Position numbers and translations under genes: made by a program. 42,241 nt of DNA from Muribaculaceae bacterium (GTDB taxonomy: Bacteria > Bacteroidota > Bacteroidia > Bacteroidales > Muribaculaceae): the NCBI GenBank assembly GCA_023662835.1, contig JAMPII010000017.1:1-42241 (forward strand), in the 5' to 3' direction. Below the pieces are notes generated by a model that saw only the letters and a list, made by a program, of their open reading frames with translations, was not told where the DNA came from and made no database searches. Every line of letters starts with the position of its first letter. Position 1 is the stretch's first letter. This document shows positions 79 to 11,559 of the stretch, one piece after another.

Positions 79-1137
79 ATGAAAAAAGTATATTTTTTGT
101 TACCAAATTTGGATGCAGGAGGTGCAGAACGTGTAACAATTACGATTGCTCGTCTTTTGCACAAAGAAGGATTCGATGTAGAGTTTATAAATTTCGGTGT
201 TCATAATGGAGAAATGCTCCAGTGGATTGAACCGGAATTTAAGTTGATTTCATTCGGATGTCAACGCACTCTTCAAGCTTTACCACGACTTCATCGTTTC
301 ATGAGGCAACATCAAGATGCAATATTCTTTTCAAGTAGGGAGCATGTGAATCTAATTTCTCTTATCGCAGCCAAAGGGACCGAAGCTCAATGCGTTGTGA
401 GAATACCGAATATGCCCAAGAATGTGCTTACGGGAGGTGTTAGTGGCTTTAAGATGCGTGTCATAAAATTCATTAACCAATGGGCACTTAAATCAGCCAA
501 GGTCATAATTGCCCAGAATAAGGAGATGAAAAAGCAGTTGGAAACGTTTTATAACCTTTCAGCTGATAAGATTGTGGCAATAAATAACCCTGTAGATAAA
601 GATAACGTCTTAAAAAGTGCAGAGAGAAGCGTTTCACCATTCAAGGTTGATGAAATCAACTTTGTTAATGTTTGTAATATTGCCTATTCTAAAGGTATTG
701 ATGTGTTGGAAGAAGCTTGGCCTATTGTAAAGAAGTCGATCCCGAATGCACATATGTATATTATTGGTAGAACTACTTCCGATATCGCTAAGGCCCTGGT
801 GAGAAAATCAGCCGAATTACTGGATTTTACATTCTTGGGATTTCAAAGTAATCCATATCCATTCTTGAAACATTGTAATGTATTTGTGCTTCCTTCTCGA
901 ATGGAGGGATTCCCCAATGTGGTACTTGAAGCAATGTGTTTCAATCGACCGGTTGCTTCCACAACTTGTGTGGAAGTAATTAAAGACATTATAAAACCTG
1001 GAGAAACCGGATACTACTGTGATATTGAAGATCCGCAAGCTCTTGCGGAATGCATGATTAAATCTTCACAATTACAGAATATCAAATCGGAATACTCGCT
1101 ATTTGATAAAAATATTTTAATAGACTGCTTTAAATAA
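79..1137 (+). CDS. Glycosyltransferase family 4 (GT-B fold)
   Basis: This 352-residue protein is a typical retaining GT4 enzyme that moves a sugar from a nucleotide donor to a growing lipid-linked oligosaccharide on the cytoplasmic face of the inner membrane. The N-terminal domain opens with a beta strand and the glycine-rich acceptor-side loop LPNLDAGGAERV (about residues 8-19). The C-terminal donor domain carries the GT4 signature around SRMEGFPNVVLEAM (about residues 274-287), with the E-x7-E spacing typical of the family. No membrane segment is visible. The ATG at 79 is the natural start. The GNAT frame begins six bases after the stop, so the two are probably co-transcribed. Donor and acceptor cannot be read from the sequence. 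The gene is AT-rich compared with the bases before it. Confidence 0.9.
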   Translation: MKKVYFLLPNLDAGGAERVTITIARLLHKEGFDVEFINFGVHNGEMLQWIEPEFKLISFGCQRTLQALPRLHRFMRQHQDAIFFSSREHVNLISLIAAKGTEAQCVVRIPNMPKNVLTGGVSGFKMRVIKFINQWALKSAKVIIAQNKEMKKQLETFYNLSADKIVAINNPVDKDNVLKSAERSVSPFKVDEINFVNVCNIAYSKGIDVLEEAWPIVKKSIPNAHMYIIGRTTSDIAKALVRKSAELLDFTFLGFQSNPYPFLKHCNVFVLPSRMEGFPNVVLEAMCFNRPVASTTCVEVIKDIIKPGETGYYCDIEDPQALAECMIKSSQLQNIKSEYSLFDKNILIDCFK

Positions 1138-1143
1138 TTAACA

Positions 1144-1293
1144 ATGATAAGGTTAGCAAATTTAAACGATATTGAGGTGATAACTCAAGTGCATAGTAAA
1201 TGCTTTAAAGATAGTTTCTCATCTCAACTATCTAAATATCAAACTGTTATAGGGGGGGCAATTTATTGGCCTCATTTTATGCAGAATATCTGA
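1144..1293 (+). CDS. N-terminal part of GNAT acetyltransferase, out of frame at a G7 tract
   Basis: An ATG at 1144, six bases after the previous stop, opens a frame whose product starts MIRLANLNDIEVITQVHSKC, a typical GNAT N-terminus (first strand and helix). The frame runs through the G7 tract at 1252-1258 and stops at 1291-1293 after 49 codons. The rest of the GNAT fold lies in another frame that overlaps from 1266. With one more G the two halves would join as VIGGGNLLASFYAEYLND, which reads as a normal GNAT core. As sequenced, the full enzyme would be made only if the tract changes length or the ribosome shifts frame. Phase variation, a decayed gene and a homopolymer sequencing error are the alternatives. 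Confidence 0.7.
   Translation: MIRLANLNDIEVITQVHSKCFKDSFSSQLSKYQTVIGGAIYWPHFMQNI
1252..1258 (+). repeat. G7 homopolymer tract, likely phase-variation switch
   Basis: Seven consecutive G bases lie at codons 37-39 of the GNAT gene that starts at 1144. The downstream GNAT frame is read when the tract length is 2 modulo 3 (for example G5 or G8), so G7 is an OFF length and a single G insertion restores the gene. Only one other G run of seven or more exists in the window (5085-5094), and it also breaks a gene of the same locus. Confidence 0.7.
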
Positions 1294-1814
1294 ATGATGC
1301 ACCTGAGTTATTCCATGTCGCATTAGATGGTGATAAAATAGTTGGTTTTTGCATGGGGTATTATATGGATAATGATACTCAGATGCAGCGGTTCTTGCAG
1401 AAGAACAAAATAAAAATTGCGTGGAAAACCATTCTCTTGCTTCTAACATTCAACCGCCAGACATGGAATAAGGCATTCGGTAGACTAAGGCATAAGCCAT
1501 CTAATGAGGATTGGAAAATTATAAATACTAAACATGAGCATATAAAGAAGAACAAAAGAGGAGATTTACTCTCAGTGTGCGTGTTGCCTGAATATAGGGG
1601 CAAAGATTACGCTCAACAACTTATGGAATCATTTCTTTCTGCGATGAAAAATTCCGGGAAAGAAATTTGTCTGCTATCGGTCGATGCCAATAACAAGGCG
1701 GCGAGAAAGTATTACGAACGAAACGGTTTTGAGTTGTACCGCACGCGAGGGTGTGATGGACTCACATATATAAAACCGTTGAATTCAAATGGCACTGACA
1801 ATGTTTCAGATTAA
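1266..1814 (+). CDS. GNAT-family acetyltransferase, C-terminal catalytic part
   Basis: This frame holds nearly all of a GNAT fold. It includes the strands around HVALDGDKIVGFCMGYY, the acetyl-CoA pyrophosphate loop in LSVCVLPEYRGKDYAQQLM (R-G-x-D-x-A, with D where G is usual), and the late motif NNKAARKYYERNGFELY. It begins at a TTG with no convincing start signal, and its natural N-terminus is encoded from 1144 in a different frame, so the two form one gene of about 223 residues broken at the G7 tract. The likely role is acetylation of an amino sugar or sugar precursor of the surface glycan, inferred from context only. The 3' end overlaps the next gene's start (ATG at 1789), so the genes are translationally packed. 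Confidence 0.75.
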   Translation: MASFYAEYLNDAPELFHVALDGDKIVGFCMGYYMDNDTQMQRFLQKNKIKIAWKTILLLLTFNRQTWNKAFGRLRHKPSNEDWKIINTKHEHIKKNKRGDLLSVCVLPEYRGKDYAQQLMESFLSAMKNSGKEICLLSVDANNKAARKYYERNGFELYRTRGCDGLTYIKPLNSNGTDNVSD

Positions 1815-2700
1815 GAGGTGGATAAAGATGCTGTCGGGCAACAGCATTGATCATGTAAACCAAGACAAAGGGAAATGTTTCTCCACCAATGAGATTAGGG
1901 GATATTACAATAATCTTACGGAGAAGGTTACAAAAAATCCTAAAATTCTTGATTCTGACGAGCTTCCTATGGTATATCCGGAAAATCAAGACCCGGTATA
2001 TTTCCCTGTGGCGATATTTCAGTATGGTTTAGGGGCATACGATTTATATCTTCAAACAAAGGAAGATAAGTACTTGAAGAAATTCTTACAATGTGTAGAT
2101 TGGGCTATTACTCATATTGACGACAAAGGACGCTGGAATAATTTCTTCTTTTATACTCCAGACACACCCTATGGAGCCATGGCGCAGGGTGAAGGAGTTT
2201 CACTTCTTGTTAGAGCATACAAACATACGGGTGACAAAAAGTATCTTGAAAAGGCACAAGAGGCTATAGACTTTATGCTATTGCCGCTTGAAGACGGAGG
2301 TACGACCAAATACGATGGGAAAGATACCTATCTAATGGAATATACGTTCAAAGGTATGGTAATGAATGGAGCTATATTCGCTTGGTGGGGGCTCTATGAC
2401 TATGTACTGGCAACTAATGATTCTGATAAATATAGAAAAGCATTAGATGCTACACTTGATTCCCTTGTAACAGTTCTTCCAAAATTTAAATGTACATATT
2501 GGAGTATGTACAGCCTCGATGGCTTAATTGCAAGTCCATTCTACCACAATCTTCATGTTGCCCAAATGGAAGCAATGTACGATCTCACAAATATTCCAAT
2601 TTTCAAGGAATATGCTGACCGCTGGCGTAGGCAACAACATAATTTTATTTGCATATCTCAAGCTTTTATCAAAAAAGCAATTCAAAAGATTGTAGAATGA
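1789..2700 (+). CDS. D-glucuronyl C5-epimerase-like protein (alpha/alpha barrel)
   Basis: The 303 residues resemble the C-terminal catalytic domain of heparan-type D-glucuronyl C5-epimerases (Pfam GLCE C-terminal). Visible features are the repeating helical hairpins typical of an alpha/alpha toroid, a YGAMAQGEGVSLLVRAY stretch (about residues 128-144) and SPFYHNLHVAQMEAMYDLT near residues 249-267, the most recognisable family signature. The family converts D-glucuronate to L-iduronate within polysaccharides; here the substrate is presumed to be a repeat unit of the local surface glycan. No signal peptide is present, so action would be cytoplasmic, before export. The start could be 1789 or the in-frame ATG at 1801. 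The start overlaps the GNAT end and the stop overlaps the next gene's ATG. Other alpha/alpha-barrel uronate enzymes are possible. Confidence 0.75.
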   Translation: MALTMFQIKRWIKMLSGNSIDHVNQDKGKCFSTNEIRGYYNNLTEKVTKNPKILDSDELPMVYPENQDPVYFPVAIFQYGLGAYDLYLQTKEDKYLKKFLQCVDWAITHIDDKGRWNNFFFYTPDTPYGAMAQGEGVSLLVRAYKHTGDKKYLEKAQEAIDFMLLPLEDGGTTKYDGKDTYLMEYTFKGMVMNGAIFAWWGLYDYVLATNDSDKYRKALDATLDSLVTVLPKFKCTYWSMYSLDGLIASPFYHNLHVAQMEAMYDLTNIPIFKEYADRWRRQQHNFICISQAFIKKAIQKIVE

Positions 2701-3761
2701 ATTTTGAAACGATGAATTCACGAACAAAGATCTTAGTATTAGGCAATTTCGGATACGCCAATCACGATTTAAGTGGTCAAACTATAAAAACGAGAGCCAT
2801 GGAGCAACTCATATCGACCTATGGGAAAGAATTTGACTCAGGAATATTTGACACCCAAACTTTATGTAAAAAGTCAAATGTTTTTAAAATGTTCCGTATG
2901 CTATCCAAATGTGATGTGTTGATCTATTTACCCGCACATGATAATTTAAAATACATCTTCCCTATTATTTATTTGTATTCCAAGATATTCAGATTTGACA
3001 TAGTTTACTCTGTTATTGGCGGATGGTTAGTCCATTATCTGGAAAATCTACCGCTGCATAGAGTTCTTCTGAAAAGGATAAAAAGAATTCTAGCAGAAAC
3101 CACGAATACGAAATCAGGATTAGAGCATAAATACGGATTTAAAAATGTAGATGTGCTTTACAATTTTAGAATTACAGATTTCAACCCACATACCAAGTTT
3201 TGTAAAAGAGAACCTTCAGATAAATTGCGACTTGTATTTATGGCTCGAATCGATCCGAAGAAAGGTCTAAATACAATATTTAATTTGTGCGAATATATAC
3301 GAGAAAAAGATATTAGGAATATTTTAATTGATTTTTATGGTCCTATTGACCCGTCAGTAAATGGCTATTTTCAAGAATGGGTAAATTCATACGATTTCGT
3401 TAATTACAATGGCTGTCTTGAACCATATGATATATACAAAACTATTTGTGCTTATGACATGCTAATACTTCCAACGCAATATTATACCGAAGGATTACCT
3501 GGAACAATAATAGAGGCATATATATCTGGTCTCCCTGTTTTAGTAACCGAATGGGAGCATTCTCGTGAGTTTGTAATAGATGGAGAAACCGGTATAATTA
3601 TCCCTTTTTATGACAATCAGATAGCATTTAATAAGGCTATTTTGGAGATATCAAGAAACTATGAAAAATTAAGCAGGTTAAAGGCTGGCGCTATAGAGTT
3701 CTCTAAACAGTTTAGAGGAGATTTTATTTGGAATAAGTTACAAAAAATTCTAGTAAAATGA
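2697..3761 (+). CDS. Glycosyltransferase family 4
   Basis: This is a GT-B glycosyltransferase of about 354 residues. The N-terminal half has KILVLGNFGYANHDLSGQTI and a membrane-proximal helix pair typical of GT4 acceptor domains. The donor half has RLVFMARIDPKKGL and then YYTEGLPGTIIEAYISGLPV, which carries the E-x7-E nucleotide-sugar motif. I chose the ATG at 2697, which overlaps the previous stop as ATGA, over the longer open frame from 2649, because this coupled arrangement recurs in the operon and the extra 16 residues look unstructured. A further in-frame ATG lies at 2712. Its donor and acceptor are unknown. The stop overlaps the next gene's ATG in the same four-base fashion. Confidence 0.88.
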   Translation: MNFETMNSRTKILVLGNFGYANHDLSGQTIKTRAMEQLISTYGKEFDSGIFDTQTLCKKSNVFKMFRMLSKCDVLIYLPAHDNLKYIFPIIYLYSKIFRFDIVYSVIGGWLVHYLENLPLHRVLLKRIKRILAETTNTKSGLEHKYGFKNVDVLYNFRITDFNPHTKFCKREPSDKLRLVFMARIDPKKGLNTIFNLCEYIREKDIRNILIDFYGPIDPSVNGYFQEWVNSYDFVNYNGCLEPYDIYKTICAYDMLILPTQYYTEGLPGTIIEAYISGLPVLVTEWEHSREFVIDGETGIIIPFYDNQIAFNKAILEISRNYEKLSRLKAGAIEFSKQFRGDFIWNKLQKILVK

Positions 3762-4852
3762 AGATTTGTTTCTTTACGGATGACATCACTAAAATTGGTG
3801 GTATAGAAAGAGTTACATCAATATTATGTAGCGAATTATACCAAGGTTACGAAATAGATATTGTTTCAATTTTTAAGGGAAGAGACAAGACTGCTTATCC
3901 GTTCCCAAAGGAAATCGAAATTCGTTATCTTACTAAAAAAAAACATGGGATAAAACCTCATTCCTTTAAACGAACAATCAACCTTTTAAAGACTCTGACA
4001 ATTGTTAGGAGATATTTTAAAAAGAATAATTATGACTTAGTGATCGCTCAATCATTTCCACCTGCATTTGCTATGTTTATAAGTGGTTTTAACAAAAATA
4101 AAATTATTGTATGTGAACATGTATATGCTTGGTATTATAACAAGATAATACAGAATATAAGGAAATATATTTACAATCAACTAAGAGCACTAATAGTCCT
4201 TACTTCAAAAGACAAATTATTTTTTAAATCATATGGTCTTAAAACAGACATTTTTGTTATTCCGAACCCAGCAGATATTGACACCCCTAGTAATATAATT
4301 AAAAGAGAACCTTACAGGTTGATTGCTGCGGGAAGATTAGAATATCAAAAGGGGTTTGACAATTTAATAAGAAGTTTTTGTGAAGTCCATAAATTACATC
4401 CTGAATGGGTTCTTGATATATATGGCAAGGGTTCTTTAAAAGATGAGTTACAGAATTTGATTGATTCTCAACATTTATCTGAATCGGTAAAACTGCGAGG
4501 AATAACAGACTCTTTAAATGTCGAGTTTTGTAAAAGCCAAATTTATGTTTTGTCATCACACTTTGAGGGCTTCCCAATGGTCTTAATTGAGGCATTATCA
4601 TGCGGTTTGCCGTGCATCGCATACGATTGTCCAAATGGACCGTCTGATATCATAACATCTGATAATGGAATACTTGTTCCAGATCAAGATGAGAAAGCAT
4701 TAACAGAAGCCATAATAAAGTTAATAGAAGATGAAAACCTCCGGAACTTAATGCAGTCGCATGCCAAATCGAGTGTTCAGCGTTTTGAAAAGCATAACAT
4801 TGCATTGATGTGGGAAAAACTAATTAATCAGTTTTCTATATATGGGAAGTAA
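3758..4852 (+). CDS. Glycosyltransferase family 4
   Basis: This 364-residue GT4 enzyme opens with MKICFFTDDITKIGGIERVT, the GT-B strand and glycine loop. Its donor domain contains RLIAAGRLEYQKGFDNLI, DIYGKGSLKDELQ and SSHFEGFPMVLIEALSCGLP, closely matching enzymes annotated as capsular glycosyltransferases or amylovoran-type galactosyltransferases. The late motif YDCPNGPSDII is also common in that subgroup. It starts with an ATGA overlap on the previous gene, and its stop (4850-4852) lies inside the first codons of the acyltransferase gene that starts at 4842, so translation of the three genes is probably coupled. Base composition is very AT-rich. Confidence 0.9.
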   Translation: MKICFFTDDITKIGGIERVTSILCSELYQGYEIDIVSIFKGRDKTAYPFPKEIEIRYLTKKKHGIKPHSFKRTINLLKTLTIVRRYFKKNNYDLVIAQSFPPAFAMFISGFNKNKIIVCEHVYAWYYNKIIQNIRKYIYNQLRALIVLTSKDKLFFKSYGLKTDIFVIPNPADIDTPSNIIKREPYRLIAAGRLEYQKGFDNLIRSFCEVHKLHPEWVLDIYGKGSLKDELQNLIDSQHLSESVKLRGITDSLNVEFCKSQIYVLSSHFEGFPMVLIEALSCGLPCIAYDCPNGPSDIITSDNGILVPDQDEKALTEAIIKLIEDENLRNLMQSHAKSSVQRFEKHNIALMWEKLINQFSIYGK

Positions 4853-5135
4853 TACAAGTAATACGAAATTCCTTGGATATATTTGCATAATTCGTGCGAT
4901 AATAATACTTCTTCTAATAATATATCATTCGTTAGCCCCGTACTGTGGTTCGTGGGAGATAATTTCTGGAATGACTGGAGATTTTAAGATTTACTATTGG
5001 ATCTCCCTTTTAGCTTATAGTTTTATGCTTGAAACGTTTGTGTTTATATCAGGATATCTATTTGGATATCAATGTAATAAACAAGGGGGGGGGGTAAATT
5101 TTTACAGACATTTGTGTATAAGTTTAAAAGATTAA
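4842..5135 (+). CDS. Membrane O-acyltransferase, N-terminal part, out of frame at a G10 tract
   Basis: The 97-residue product begins MGSNTSNTKFLGYICIIR and contains two hydrophobic helices plus the family-typical HSLAPYCG and FVFISGYLFGYQ segments, as in acyltransferase family 3 (OafA/WecH type) membrane enzymes that acetylate sugars. After NKQ it enters the G10 tract at 5085-5094 and then reads out of frame to a stop at 5133-5135. The remaining membrane segments are encoded in another frame from 5114 onward. One more G, or two fewer, gives a join reading GGG(G)KFLQTFVYKFKRLMIPS, the expected continuation for this family. The N-terminal stub alone should be inactive. Confidence 0.75.
   Translation: MGSNTSNTKFLGYICIIRAIIILLLIIYHSLAPYCGSWEIISGMTGDFKIYYWISLLAYSFMLETFVFISGYLFGYQCNKQGGGVNFYRHLCISLKD
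5085..5094 (+). repeat. G10 homopolymer tract, likely phase-variation switch
   Basis: Ten consecutive G bases interrupt the acyltransferase frame after the codon CAA. The downstream frame is read when the tract length is 2 modulo 3 (G8 or G11), so the sequenced length is OFF and, as at the G7 tract, one added G switches it ON. A run of ten G in an AT-rich gene is very unlikely by chance and is the classic substrate for slipped-strand mispairing. Confidence 0.8.
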
Positions 5136-5872
5136 TGATTCCGTCATTGATTTTTAGTTTTGCTTATTTGCTTCTTTTTCAATCAAAAATCGACTTTAAT
5201 CTAAATTTTATTTACAAGATTTTTAATGGCGTAGGCCACTTATGGTTTTTACCTATGCTATTTTGGTGTTTCTTGCTTACTTTATTAATTGAAAGACTTG
5301 GTTTAAAATGTCGTTTTTCTATTTTGATAACTGTAATACTCACATTATTTTCACTCGGAAAGCTACCATTAAGAATCAATCAAAGTTTCAACTATATACT
5401 CTTTTTTTACATAGGATTTACCATACATAAATTTGACAAAACACGTTTGCAAAGATTTGTAAGATGTATAAATCTAAAAAACATTATAATTGTATGGAGT
5501 GCATACATATTTTTAGTTTGTACTGGAATCTTATCAAAAACTTATATAACTGATGGCTCTTTGATTGCCAAAATTATAAAGTTTTCATATGCTTCGGTAG
5601 GAGTATTAGCAATTTTTATAACTACTTATTTCTTCACTGAAATAAAGAAATACGAAGTTCCAAAAGGTATTATCGATTTCGGAAATTGCTGCTTTGGCGT
5701 TTATCTACTTCAAGAATTTATAATTAGACTTATTTATTATAAAACACCAGCATCTAATTATATTTCAATCCTTGCTTTGCCTTGGTTGACTTGTATGGCA
5801 ACATTAGTTGTATCATCCATACTCACTAAATACTTTAGAAAGTACAAAATGGGCAAATTATTGTTGGGCTAA
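5114..5872 (+). CDS. Membrane O-acyltransferase (acyltransferase family 3), C-terminal part
   Basis: These 252 residues hold about seven hydrophobic helices and the family features FKRLMIPSLIFSFAYLLLF, GVGHLWFLPMLFWCF (the GHLWFL motif typical of acyltransferase family 3) and FGNCCFGVYLLQEFIIRLIYY. Together with the upstream piece from 4842 they make one protein of about 343 residues, the usual family size. The open frame's apparent start overlaps the earlier frame and has no upstream start signal, so it is better read as the second half of a gene split at the G10 tract. The family transfers acetyl or similar groups to sugar hydroxyls of O-antigens and capsules in the inner membrane. The next gene starts soon after the stop at 5872. 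Confidence 0.8.
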   Translation: MYKFKRLMIPSLIFSFAYLLLFQSKIDFNLNFIYKIFNGVGHLWFLPMLFWCFLLTLLIERLGLKCRFSILITVILTLFSLGKLPLRINQSFNYILFFYIGFTIHKFDKTRLQRFVRCINLKNIIIVWSAYIFLVCTGILSKTYITDGSLIAKIIKFSYASVGVLAIFITTYFFTEIKKYEVPKGIIDFGNCCFGVYLLQEFIIRLIYYKTPASNYISILALPWLTCMATLVVSSILTKYFRKYKMGKLLLG

Positions 5873-5908
5873 TAATTAGGGATAGTGAAAAATTCAGATA
5901 TCAATTTT

Positions 5909-6688
5909 ATGATAAATTATGGATTAGTTTCGGTAGTTACTCCGACGTGGAATTGCGGACGATTTATCGCTGAGACTATTGAGAGTGTATTGGCACAGTC
6001 CTACCCAAATTGGGAAATGCTGATAGTGGATGATTGTTCAAATGATGATACAAGAAAAATCGTTGAGCAATATCAACAGAAAGATTCTCGCATTAAATAT
6101 CATTGTCTTGATTGCAACTCTGGTGCGGCTGTAGCCCGTAATTTTGCCTTGAAAATGGCTCGTGGAAGATGGATTGCATTTCTCGATAGCGATGATCTTT
6201 GGAAGCCGGAGAAACTGGAGCGTCAACTTGCATTCATGGTTAAAAATAACTACGCATTCACATACCATAACTATACAGAAATTGATGAACAATCGAAACC
6301 TCTGGGAGTATTTGTAAGCGGCATTCGCAAGGTGTCGAAGTTCGGGATGTTCGCTTGCTGCTGGCCTGGTTGCCTTTCAGTGATATATGATGCAGAAAGA
6401 ATCGGGTTGATACAGATTGAGAATGTAAAGAAGAATAATGACACGGCGATGTGGCTAAAAGTGGTCGAGAAGGCTCCTTGCTATTTGCTTGATGAAGATC
6501 TTGCACTTTACCGAAGACGTGCTAATTCCATTACGCCGAAACCTTTATGGCAAAGGATCTGGGCTCATTATCCTCTTTTCCGGGTCGCCGAAAGGATGAA
6601 TCCTGTTGCTGCAACATTCTGGGTAGGAATGAACGTGTTTGGGAATGCTTTCAAGAAAATATTTTATGTAAAAGAGATATCAAATTAA
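5909..6688 (+). CDS. Glycosyltransferase family 2
   Basis: This is a GT-A fold enzyme of 259 residues. It shows the nucleotide-binding start VSVVTPTWNCGRFIAETIES, the EMLIVDDCSNDDT acidic motif, and the metal-binding D-x-D region AFLDSDDLWKPEKLERQL, followed by a C-terminal part ending in a short amphipathic stretch. I prefer the ATG at 5909; a GTG at 5885 would add eight residues and is preceded by an AGGGGA stretch that could act as a ribosome site, so the longer form remains possible. It is the last gene of the AT-rich block and lies four bases before the aminotransferase gene. Its C-terminal third is somewhat less AT-rich than the upstream transferases. Confidence 0.88.
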   Translation: MINYGLVSVVTPTWNCGRFIAETIESVLAQSYPNWEMLIVDDCSNDDTRKIVEQYQQKDSRIKYHCLDCNSGAAVARNFALKMARGRWIAFLDSDDLWKPEKLERQLAFMVKNNYAFTYHNYTEIDEQSKPLGVFVSGIRKVSKFGMFACCWPGCLSVIYDAERIGLIQIENVKKNNDTAMWLKVVEKAPCYLLDEDLALYRRRANSITPKPLWQRIWAHYPLFRVAERMNPVAATFWVGMNVFGNAFKKIFYVKEISN

Positions 6689-6692
6689 GATT

Positions 6693-7934
6693 ATGAACGT
6701 TAAGCGTAATATACCGTTCTCACCGCCGGATATGTCGGAGGCGGAGATTCAGGAGGTGGCTGAGGCCCTGAAGTCGGGCTGGATCACCACCGGTCCTAAA
6801 ACTAAAGAGTTTGAAAACCTTATCTCGATGTGTTGCCAGACCATCAAGTATGATGCGGAAGGCAAACCGGAACATACGGCTTGCTGCCTCAATTCGGCAA
6901 CTGCCTGCATGGAGTTGGCGCTGCGTGTACTCGGTATCGGCGAGGGCGACGAGGTAATCGTTCCGGCTTATACCTACACTGCTACTGCAAGTTCGGTGTG
7001 CCACGTTGGTGCTCGCCCAGTGCTGATTGATTGTGCTCCCGGCTCGTTCGAAATGGACTATGACAAGATGGCAGAGGCCATCAACGAAAAAACCAAGGCC
7101 ATTATGCCGGTTGATTTAGGCGGTATTGTCGCAGACTATGACAAAGTCTTTGCTGCAGTTGAGGCCAAAAAACATTTGTTCAAACCGGCAAACGAGATTC
7201 AACGTAATTTCGGTCGTTGCATCGTGATTGCTGATGCTGCCCACGCTTTCGGAGCGATGTGGCACGGCAAGATGTGTGGCGAAATCGCCGATTTCACTTC
7301 TTTCTCCTTCCACGCGGTCAAGAACCTCACTACGGCGGAGGGTGGCGCGTTGACATGGTGCAGCCGTGAGGGGATGGACAATGAGGCAATCTATAAGCAA
7401 CTACAGTTGCTCTCGCTGCATGGCCAGAACAAAGACGCACTTGCAAAGACAAAACTCGGCGGTTGGGAATATGACATCATTGGCACTTGGTATAAGTGCA
7501 ACATGACCGACATTATGGCTGGCATAGGCTTGGCTCAGCTGAAGCGCTATCCTGAGATGCTTCGCCGTCGCCGTCAGCTCATCGAACGGTATAATGTGGC
7601 TCTTGAACCTTACAATGTGCAGGTGCTGAATCATTTCAGCAACGAACATTCGTCAAGCGGTCACCTTTACCTTGTACGCCTTTTAGGCGCCACTCTTGAG
7701 CAGCGTAATGAGGTGATAGTGAAGATGGCAGAACGTGGCATCGCTACTAACGTTCACTACAAGCCGCTGCCTATGATGACTGCATACAAAGCTCTCGGAT
7801 ATGACATCAAGGACTATCCTAATGCCTATGCACAATTCGAGAATGAAATTACGCTTCCACTGCATACCCGTCTGACCGATGAAGATGTAGATTACATTCT
7901 TGATAATTTCATTGATATAATCAAAGAGCTTTGA
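6693..7934 (+). CDS. DegT/DnrJ/EryC1/StrS-type sugar aminotransferase
   Basis: This 413-residue PLP enzyme is expected to add an amino group to a nucleotide-linked keto-sugar (C4 position in the closest families), making an amino-deoxy sugar. Family marks are IPFSPPDMSEAEIQEV at the N-terminus, the LNSATACMELAL cofactor region, DAAHAFGA (residues 181-188) and the PLP lysine in SFHAVKNLTTAEGG (K210). The HYKPLP and LPLHTRLTDEDV segments near the end are also typical. It is much richer in GC than the preceding glycosyltransferases. Its stop overlaps the TTG start of the phosphoglycosyl transferase, suggesting that this enzyme supplies the sugar loaded first onto the lipid carrier. The matching dehydratase and acetyltransferase are not clearly present in the window. 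Confidence 0.9.
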   Translation: MNVKRNIPFSPPDMSEAEIQEVAEALKSGWITTGPKTKEFENLISMCCQTIKYDAEGKPEHTACCLNSATACMELALRVLGIGEGDEVIVPAYTYTATASSVCHVGARPVLIDCAPGSFEMDYDKMAEAINEKTKAIMPVDLGGIVADYDKVFAAVEAKKHLFKPANEIQRNFGRCIVIADAAHAFGAMWHGKMCGEIADFTSFSFHAVKNLTTAEGGALTWCSREGMDNEAIYKQLQLLSLHGQNKDALAKTKLGGWEYDIIGTWYKCNMTDIMAGIGLAQLKRYPEMLRRRRQLIERYNVALEPYNVQVLNHFSNEHSSSGHLYLVRLLGATLEQRNEVIVKMAERGIATNVHYKPLPMMTAYKALGYDIKDYPNAYAQFENEITLPLHTRLTDEDVDYILDNFIDIIKEL

Positions 7935-8521
7935 AACGCGCATTCGACATAATAGCAAGTGGACTGGGACTTGTATGCCTCAGTCCACTTTTTGCAGTCT
8001 TGGCCGTGTGGATAAAATGCGACAGTAAGGGCCCGGTCTTCTATCGTCAAGTACGTGTAGGCAGGAACAACAAAGACTTCAGACTATTCAAGTTTCGCTC
8101 AATGCGACCCGATAGTGACAAACTCGGTCTTATCACCGTCGGAGGTCATGACCCAAGAGTCACTCGTTCCGGCTATTATATCCGCAAATACAAACTTGAT
8201 GAGTTTCCGCAGCTTATCAATGTATTTCTTGGGGATATGAGTCTTGTCGGGCCAAGACCTGAAGTGAGGAAGTATGTAGATATGTACTCTCCGGAGCAAT
8301 TGAAGGTTCTTTCTGTCCGTCCCGGCATCACTTCACTTGCTTCAATCCGCTACCGAAACGAAAACGAAATACTTGCCGCCGCCGAAGACCCAGACAAATG
8401 CTATATCGAACAGGTTATGCCGGACAAACTCGCCATTGACCTCGAATATGTAAGTAAAGCTAACCTGTGGAATGACATCAAACTCATTTTCTCAACATTC
8501 AAGGAGATAATAGAGAAATAA
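7931..8521 (+). CDS. Small monotopic phosphoglycosyl transferase (bacterial sugar transferase)
   Basis: This 196-residue enzyme starts polysaccharide synthesis by moving a phospho-sugar from a UDP-sugar to undecaprenyl phosphate. It has the single re-entrant N-terminal hydrophobic helix (residues 3-28), the core motif [13 protein letters not shown], the FKFRSM segment, the catalytic Asp-Glu dyad in KLDEFPQL (D90, E91) and [11 protein letters not shown]. It is as short as PglC and lacks the N-terminal membrane domain of WbaP or WcaJ types. The start is a TTG at 7931, overlapping the previous stop as TTGA: the product [14 protein letters not shown] is the standard family beginning and no ATG lies nearby. 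It is the last gene before a strong terminator. Confidence 0.92.
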
Positions 8522-10221: not shown

Positions 10222-11559
10222 TCATCCGAATTCGTGTCTTGAGGTAGTGCGAAGGAAGAAGTAAAGGAATAATGAGGCGGCAATTATTAAGCTTATGGAG
10301 AAGCTGAGAATGATGCCGTAGGTTGCCATACCGCAAGGGAATGTGATTATGTAGCCGGCCGGTATGCCAACAACCATGTAGCTGACGAAGGCAATCCATA
10401 GCATAGGCATAACGTTAGATGTGCCTCGTAAAGCGTTGGCGAAAAGTATTTGCGTTGCGTCGGCATATTGGTACAGCACCAATGGAAAAATCAGAGTCAT
10501 TGTCAGCTCTATCACCCTGATATCTTCGGTGAAGAGCAAAATCAGATACCGCTCGAAAAAGATGAACACCAGCGACGACAATGTGGCCAAGACCAGCACG
10601 ATGTGATAGCCGGCAAAGGCTGTGTGGCGCATTGCCCTGCTGTCGTTCAATCCGGCGTTGTTGGCCACAATTACCGACACCGCCGAGGCCATACTGTAAT
10701 AAACACAAAAACCCAGCGTTCCGGTGATAACAATTATCTGATAGGCTGCCAACGGTACGGCACCAATCCACCCGGCCATGACGGCCGAGAAACTGAAGCA
10801 TACCGATTCAAGAGTCATCTGTACGGAAACCGGCCACGAGGTTCGGTTTATGTGTGACAACAACGTCTTGTTTATTCGTGAGTTGACAAAACCGTCGCGG
10901 TAAACCCGGAATCGCCTCATACATAGCAATACATACATTGCGGCCAGCGGGCATATAATGCGGCTGATAAGAGTACTGTAGCCGGCACCCATAAGTCCAA
11001 GCTCGGGAAAACCGCAATGACCGAAGATGAGCAGATAGTTACCTGCAATGTTCACTACGTTCGCAACAAGTACAATCCACATAGGGATACCCGTTCTGTT
11101 TATAGCATAAAGCCACTGCGACAATGCGTTGAATATAGCAACCGGAAGAATGCCGATAAGCGACAGCACAAAATAGGGCTTTATAAGCGGCATAAGCTCG
11201 TCGGGCTGGCCAAGACTATCGAGATTGAGATAGAGCAATGTCATCAACGCCGTTATTAGCAAAGCAAACAACATATTGGCAAACAGGCCGTTGCGAATCA
11301 TTGCACCTATTTTATCGAACCTGTCGCGGCTGAAGAGCGCACCTATCAACGGCGTTAAACCGTAGGTGAATCCCAGGCAGGCAAAAATAGCGACGTTAAA
11401 CACATTGTTGACAAACGAAGCTGACGCGAGGGCGTCGGTGCTGTAACGGCCAACCATTATATTGTCAGCAAATGCTACAACAATCATGCCGAGCTGCCCT
11501 ACAAGAATCGGCAGCCCGAGTTTGACTATTTTTGCATATTCCTGCCTATATTTTGTCAT
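10222..11559 (-). CDS. MATE family multidrug/Na+ antiporter
   Basis: This 445-residue integral membrane protein has about twelve hydrophobic helices arranged as two similar halves, the mark of MATE transporters, which export cationic drugs and metabolites in exchange for Na+ or H+. Family features include [26 protein letters not shown] at the N-terminus (the first helix with its conserved GQ and D-x-x-MVGR pattern) and the matching start of the second half around [17 protein letters not shown]. The start codon overlaps the uvrC stop by four bases, so it is the last gene of an apt-uvrC-MATE run. It ends just before the guaA promoter, with no clear terminator between. Its substrate cannot be predicted. 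Confidence 0.9.

Follow-up and report, generated by a model that had tools for sequence, protein, structure and literature searches.

The locus described here raises the question of whether homopolymeric G tracts inside coding sequences switch the decoration of a capsule-type polysaccharide in a Muribaculaceae gut bacterium. The stretch analyzed (hereafter the window; 42,241 nucleotides; assembly GCA_023662835.1, contig JAMPII010000017.1) is contig C8 of a 67-contig, 2.18 Mb genome, and contains part of an operon for polysaccharide synthesis. Poly-G and poly-C contingency loci in the surface-glycan genes of Campylobacter, Helicobacter, and Neisseria are classical cases of slipped-strand phase variation. 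We consider it likely that a single operon of the Wzx/Wzy type, for a capsule or an exopolysaccharide, carries six poly-G contingency tracts, and that slippage switches decoration of the product gene by gene. Slipped-strand mispairing at each tract would change the tract length in small steps and shift the reading frame, the individual decorating enzymes (O-acyltransferases, an N-acetyltransferase, and glycosyltransferases) would be turned on or off independently, and a clonal population would come to display many versions of one polysaccharide.

The only G runs of at least seven nucleotides on either strand of the window are G7 at 1252-1258 and G10 at 5085-5094, as a preliminary description of this DNA had stated, and the open reading frame (ORF) tables on both sides of the tracts bear out its claim that each breaks a coding frame. 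For the acyltransferase-3 gene, the ORF from ATG 4842 runs for 81 codons up to the G10 tract and stops 12 codons past it, and a different frame is open for 258 codons beyond the tract. When the pieces were scanned separately against Pfam, the piece before G10 matched positions 3-67 of the Acyl_transf_3 profile (PF01757; 25.5 bits, below the 31-bit cut-off), and the piece after G10 matched positions 75-322 (57.5 bits). For the GNAT-like gene, the ORF from ATG 1144 runs for 36 codons up to the G7 tract and stops 10 codons past it, with a different frame open for 184 codons beyond. The GNAT domains are confined to the piece after G7 (Acetyltransf_1, 58.8 bits). Upstream of the tract, the 49-codon piece shows no Pfam match by itself; judged by eye, it looks like the opening strand and helix of a GNAT. 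The nearest solved relative, 7l1k, carries 31 residues ahead of a region whose alignment to residues 5-29 of the downstream piece is very weak (i-Evalue 200). No internal stop was found in the downstream piece of either gene; further damage there had been named beforehand as a sign against switching. The G7 count in the window is unremarkable by itself, since it was equalled or exceeded in 7 of 100 dinucleotide shuffles.

The operon extends over two neighboring contigs. The first 55 bases of C8 are identical to the last 55 of contig C49, the first 55 bases of C49 equal those that begin contig C6 after reverse complementation, and the searches that were run found no further match to these contig-end sequences in the assembly. 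An acyltransferase ORF spans the C6/C49 junction, with its stop two codons beyond. The joined operon is of capsule type, measures 17.4 kb (0.8% of the genome), and carries six poly-G tracts, so the double switch with four states proposed from the window was too low an estimate. The Wzx flippase, the Wzy polymerase, and the initiating sugar transferase, the last with a score below its cut-off, are all found in the one operon, as in a capsule locus, and the gene order and strand suggest that the genes share one transcript.

Among the tract-bearing genes, one acyltransferase gene is in frame and one is out of frame, and two glycosyltransferase-like genes are out of frame. The GNAT gene is also out of frame, at a run of only G7, which is the weakest of the six tracts. 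The tract in the TupA-like gene does not make a simple ON/OFF split, because the upstream ORF already spans the whole profile. This TupA-like gene (L077:4392-5327, on C49) encodes a short tandem repeat of GPVPKPAK units and lies next to a partial second TupA copy.

The tracts are concentrated in the operon beyond what chance would give. The genome contains 19 runs of at least eight G (G8+; derived from 28 overlapping matches), 7 of which lie in two prophage-like contig regions on C11 and C39 (read by eye). The operon holds 5 of the 12 G8+ runs outside these regions (binomial P 2.5e-8), and its five runs remain in excess when set against all 19 (P 3.5e-7). When the G10 tract that had drawn attention to the locus was omitted, the corresponding figures were 4 of 11 (P 1.3e-6) and 4 of 18 (P 1.1e-5). 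Synonymous-codon resampling of the operon gave an expectation of 0.12 G8+ runs against four present in the 16.4 kb scored. The scored pieces numbered 18 of the 19 listed, one having been removed because its frame was faulty, and the tracts in the GNAT gene and in the gene with G9 fall outside them. These results indicate that the tract counts exceed chance at both the genome and the operon level. The tract cluster on C11 was rejected as a second glycan locus, as its ORFs were read by eye, with no family search, as a prophage and C39 as a related element, and the 55 bases common to C11 and C39 were rejected as a mixture of tract lengths, as the two contigs diverge beyond those bases.

We compared the acyltransferase gene with homologues at 46 loci, which were retrieved by scanning bacterial genomes for relatives of the downstream acyltransferase piece; the tracts played no part in their selection. 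The 46 genes were mapped with the in-frame C6 protein, and the span of L049 was begun 6 bases early to take in its tract. On the coding strand, runs of at least eight G were present in nine of the genes, as compared with none for C, one for A, and two for T. In the remaining 582.5 kb of the same loci, nine coding-orientation G8+ runs were counted, so that their density is 12-fold higher in the acyltransferase genes (Fisher P 1.9e-6), and several of those nine fall in other acetyltransferase genes. Under a first-order Markov null, 1.36 G8+ runs would be expected in the 46 genes.

When the pieces were aligned separately alongside the whole in-frame copies, the tracts fell at recurrent sites: near residues 32-36 of the C6 protein in L036, L049, and L059 (G7); near residues 78-84 for the window G10 and L030; and near residues 223-236 in C6, L032, L034, L043, L050, and L057. 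The tract of L072 fell near residue 293. For L050 and L072, the upstream pieces were used because their downstream pieces aligned elsewhere at the first residue; in L072, a single frame runs through the tract in both the frame table and the span test. The G8+ tract is in frame in five homologues (L030, L032, L034, L036, and L072) and out of frame in four (L043, L049, L050, and L057), the last being an out-of-frame G10 in Muribaculum sp. An289. Beyond the tract, the window, L043, L050, and L057 genes stay open as far as the match extends. The acyltransferase gene thus consists of otherwise intact halves and has in-frame homologues, as a contingency locus does. The comparison with intact homologues across the frame joins, which the preliminary description had called for, succeeded for the acyltransferase and yielded no intact copy for the GNAT among the 225 family genomes.

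These comparisons bear on a different reading, that the broken genes are decaying pseudogenes in which the G runs mark the first frameshift and no switching back takes place. In favor of decay, the gene is out of frame or altered at five of the six operon tracts. Against it, the window, L043, L050, and L057 genes hold no other stop in their downstream halves, and a tract occupies the matching site without breaking the frame in L030, L032, L034, L036, and the C6 paralogue. In addition, decay would strike at random places, whereas the four broken copies found by a span test on all 46 genes all break at simple repeats: L043, L050, and L057 at G8-G10, and L055 at a TA/GA repeat. The span test is blind to breaks near the start, and some copies are truncated by contig ends. 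The breaks of L049 (G8) and L059 (G7) came from tract-centered frame tables, which miss breaks away from tracts, and were left out of this argument because they were found through their tracts. Decay is therefore very unlikely as the explanation, and what is directly established, namely the tracts, the frame breaks, the stop-free downstream halves, the concentration in the operon, and the recurrent sites in homologues, agrees better with contingency switching. The repeat at which the L055 homologue breaks is a dinucleotide repeat at L055:5460-5490, not poly-G.

Tracts were also seen in other acetyltransferases. Hexapeptide acetyltransferases of L168, which is the same locus as L043, and of L050, and by eye one of L061, share a tract site near the N terminus that holds G9-G10; the frame is kept in L168 and L050 and broken in L061. 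L057 has a G10 in a gene similar to the hexapeptide acetyltransferases, whose upstream part could not be placed, and in L106 (genome G002, same genus) another acyltransferase is out of frame at G11, with a downstream piece that has no Pfam match.

The out-of-frame lengths might instead be homopolymer sequencing or assembly errors in genes that are in fact intact. Long G runs are error-prone and the source is a multi-contig assembly. Length errors, in contrast, cannot produce a tract, and it is the number of tracts that exceeds chance; T8+ runs, at two against 14.9 expected under the Markov null, show no such excess in the 46 genes; and an out-of-frame G10 is also found in Muribaculum sp. An289, which is not titled as a metagenome-assembled genome. 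Errors are thus a highly improbable source of the frame breaks. Equally improbable are programmed ribosomal or transcriptional slippage sites, at which some full-length enzyme would be made while the length of the DNA stays fixed. Such recoding is compatible with a change of frame at a slippery run, and an identical DNA layout would serve. Against it, tract length varies among homologues (G8 to G10), in-frame copies retain a tract that recoding would not need, and the usual run for transcriptional slippage is poly-A, not poly-G.

Direct evidence for a change in tract length comes from viral elements. A cytosine-methylase-like gene (named by eye) in the prophage-like region of C11 (L075:11642-12403 and 10677-11471) is split at a G8, and seven related viral contigs (L171-L177) have G5, G6, G7, or G9 at the tract position of the methylase-like gene. 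Over 2,795 bases, viral contigs L179 and L180 share 99.2% identity and are separated by 22 mismatches and a single gap. The gap lies inside an 80-base stretch free of mismatches, at a tract that is G9 in one and G8 in the other with identical flanks, and this tract differs from the methylase-like one. These results indicate that tracts change length in related viral elements, which is not a demonstration for the tracts of the capsule operon.

Several observations weigh against contingency switching of the operon. Length variation at the locus itself was not seen: two exact-flank scans of viral contigs gave no match, and neither a DNA search of 14 genomes of the genus nor DNA searches that took the L057 and L168 loci as queries against 397 family genomes had a near-identical capsule locus among the matches listed. 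In the L168 search, the matches listed besides the one to its own genome (G021) cover query positions outside both tracts. A match in the genus genome G013 (37 bases around an intergenic G8) was dropped, as it rests on the tract itself. The tract lengths are perhaps consensus guesses, because the window comes from a 67-contig assembly. The Markov null cuts the excess in the 46 genes to about 7-fold, 37 of the 46 homologues have no G8+ tract, and, as the 46 are relatives of a tract-bearing gene, 9 of 46 may be atypical of the wider family. At a threshold of E 1e-10, the GNAT piece recovered nothing but itself from 225 family genomes, no intact-frame GNAT homologue was present among the homologue loci compared, and its G7 tract is short. 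Finally, the out-of-frame or altered state of five of the six genes could also fit decay, and the TupA-like tract gives no clean split. Slippage as an ON/OFF mechanism is the best explanation and gains comparative support from tracts that recur at the same places in homologues, whether the frame is kept or broken; at the locus itself, length variation was not observed. Reversible length change in this species, together with an altered glycan, is what we infer.

An invertible promoter for the operon was considered and rejected: C6:1900-3300 contains three inverted pairs, and the likely promoter, placed by eye near 2210-2230, is flanked by none of them. A 12-nt, 92% inverted pair in C6 spans 1981-2172. 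A perfect 14-nt inverted repeat with arms 235 nt apart (L080:2763-3025, on C6) surrounds a stretch that looks promoter-like by eye. A tRNA-Met gene (C6 2459-2531) separates it from the operon, and it may be an invertible segment that has nothing to do with the capsule genes. The features of the operon are listed in Table 1.

Table 1. Features of the capsule-type operon; positions are those of the window unless a contig is named.
Feature	Position	Strand	Basis and remarks
UpxY-like protein	first in chain, contig C6 side		NF033644 60.3 bits, below the 100-bit cut-off; no Pfam match
Acyltransferase-3, in-frame G8	C6 copy		Acyl_transf_3 95.4 bits, profile 4-324 (whole domain)
Glycosyltransferase-like gene broken at G9			named by eye; downstream piece without Pfam or NCBIfam match
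Wzx flippase			Polysacc_synt 175.7 bits
GT2 glycosyltransferase broken at G8			63-codon downstream piece without match
PGA_cap protein	between the GT2 (G8) and TupA-like genes		
TupA-like ATP-grasp, G8 at its end, then second partial TupA	contig C49		Pfam
Wzy-like polymerase/ligase, last codons	1..52	+	body on C49:5760-6980; 55-base exact overlap; Wzy_C 40.6 bits
GT4 glycosyltransferase	79..1137	+	Pfam Glyco_trans_1_4
GNAT-like acetyltransferase, upstream piece, 49 codons	1144..1290	+	ORF; no Pfam match alone
G7 tract, frame break of GNAT-like gene	1252..1258	+	run count, frame table
GNAT-like gene, downstream piece, other frame	1266..1814	+	Acetyltransf_1 58.8 bits; no internal stop
D-glucuronyl C5-epimerase C-terminal domain protein	1789..2700	+	C5-epim_C 132.7 bits
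GT4 glycosyltransferase	2712..3761	+	Pfam, scanned as 2649-3761; start 2712 picked by eye
GT4 glycosyltransferase	3758..4852	+	Pfam
Acyltransferase-3 gene, upstream piece, 97 codons	4842..5135	+	Acyl_transf_3 3-67, 25.5 bits, below cut-off
G10 tract, acyltransferase-3 frame break	5085..5094	+	near site of in-frame G9 in homologue L030
Acyltransferase-3 gene, downstream piece	5114..5872	+	Acyl_transf_3 75-322, 57.5 bits; no internal stop
GT2 glycosyltransferase	5885..6688	+	Pfam
DegT/DnrJ aminotransferase	6693..7934	+	Pfam
Initiating polyprenyl sugar-phosphate transferase, last operon gene	7931..8521	+	EPS_sugtrans 232.9 bits, below whole-protein cut-off 295.55

Poly-G runs are widespread in the family. 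At least one run of nine or more G (G9+) is present in 207 of the 225 family genomes (each at least 90% complete), with a range of 0 to 43 per genome, and many of the runs inspected are intergenic. The largest number of G8+ runs among 11 genomes counted was 99 in 3.5 Mb, in G238, whose locus L061 is titled Alistipes sp. In 17 of 71 distinct G9+ contexts, TTAA(A/C) lies no more than 30 bases upstream and TAnnTTTG no more than 40 bases downstream; the same pair accompanied 0.2% of 3,550 positions drawn at random from these loci and occurred once on the opposite strand. This test is not independent, because the motif was discovered in those same sequences. The contexts, all from family genomes, are L104, L105, L108, L109, L111, L118, L126, L128, L134, L142, L148, L153, L156, L157, L159, L161, and L163. 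The arrangement, with G9-G11 as the core between TTAA(A/C) and TAnnTTTG, is promoter-like. In L105 and L111, the ORF next to the promoter-like G tract exceeds 1,000 codons, a SusC size judged by length with no family search. In addition, mutL of the genus genome G005 (L110:3986-5872) carries G10 in frame at codon 375, a position in the interdomain linker, and among 15 mutL loci from 11 of the 14 genus genomes, only that of G005 has a G or C run of at least seven. On balance, we lean slightly toward the view that the Bacteroidales, including the Muribaculaceae, possess a large and largely undescribed poly-G phasome, composed of one-by-one coding switches in capsule acyltransferases and glycosyltransferases and of a recurrent G9-G11 promoter type, in some cases upstream of SusC-size ORFs, operating alongside or instead of DNA inversion, with the mutL G10 of one genome possibly modulating the slippage rate.

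We found no description of poly-G phase variation in Bacteroidales, and a single speculative mention of slippage in a Bacteroidales capsule (PMC3090145), in a search with sparse coverage of subscription papers and bioRxiv preprints. One review names simple-sequence-repeat repertoires and, for Bacteroides, invertase-mediated switching (PMC11868660); another paper counts Bacteroides among the genera with contingency loci, with no repeat named for it in the portion available (PMC4235727). The mechanism is thus known elsewhere and hardly described for this group in the literature found, and a slippage-based, phase-variable capsule operon with multiple tracts is the most likely description of the locus. 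In the gut, surface polysaccharides of Bacteroidales influence sensitivity to phages as well as immune recognition, with switching attributed to promoter inversion (PMC11868660, PMC12355684). If our interpretation is correct, one capsule type would be a mixture of many decorated forms, and inversion-based tools would miss a layer of slippage that is readily lost in consensus assemblies.

The speculative mention concerns disrupted acetyltransferases in the PSI/9 polysaccharide locus of B. fragilis, for which slippage was proposed as one way in which variants in acetylation might arise (PMC3090145). That case involves a tract of four C in one strain, whereas G8-G10 tracts recur here across several Bacteroidales.

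Capsule O-acetylation is phase-variable in E. coli K1 through NeuO (PMC3046976), and the E. coli case involves heteropolymeric repeats upstream of an O-acetyltransferase (PMC3090145). The present operon would likewise have a capsule O-acetyltransferase switched by a repeat, differing in that a poly-G tract lies inside a membrane acyltransferase-3. The acyltransferase-3 fold is presumably unrelated to NeuO.

Poly-G tracts occur in Campylobacter (PMC11959909) and in the receptor-binding protein genes of its phages (Sorensen 2021, as cited in PMC11959909). The phage genes resemble the prophage-like regions described here in carrying poly-G and differ in host phylum and gene. The loci of Campylobacter, Helicobacter, and Neisseria share with the present operon coding G tracts in surface-glycan enzymes, several per genome and both in and out of frame; they differ in that the host here belongs to the Bacteroidales and that switching here is proposed from sequence.

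In Bacteroides, capsule switching proceeds via promoter inversion (PMC11868660, PMC12355684). Both systems involve a Bacteroidales capsule operon headed by an UpxY-like gene, here a match below the cut-off, and both make the glycan heterogeneous within a population. No inverted repeats were found flanking the likely promoter of the present operon, and whereas inversion flips a whole locus, the tracts described here would act gene by gene within one operon.

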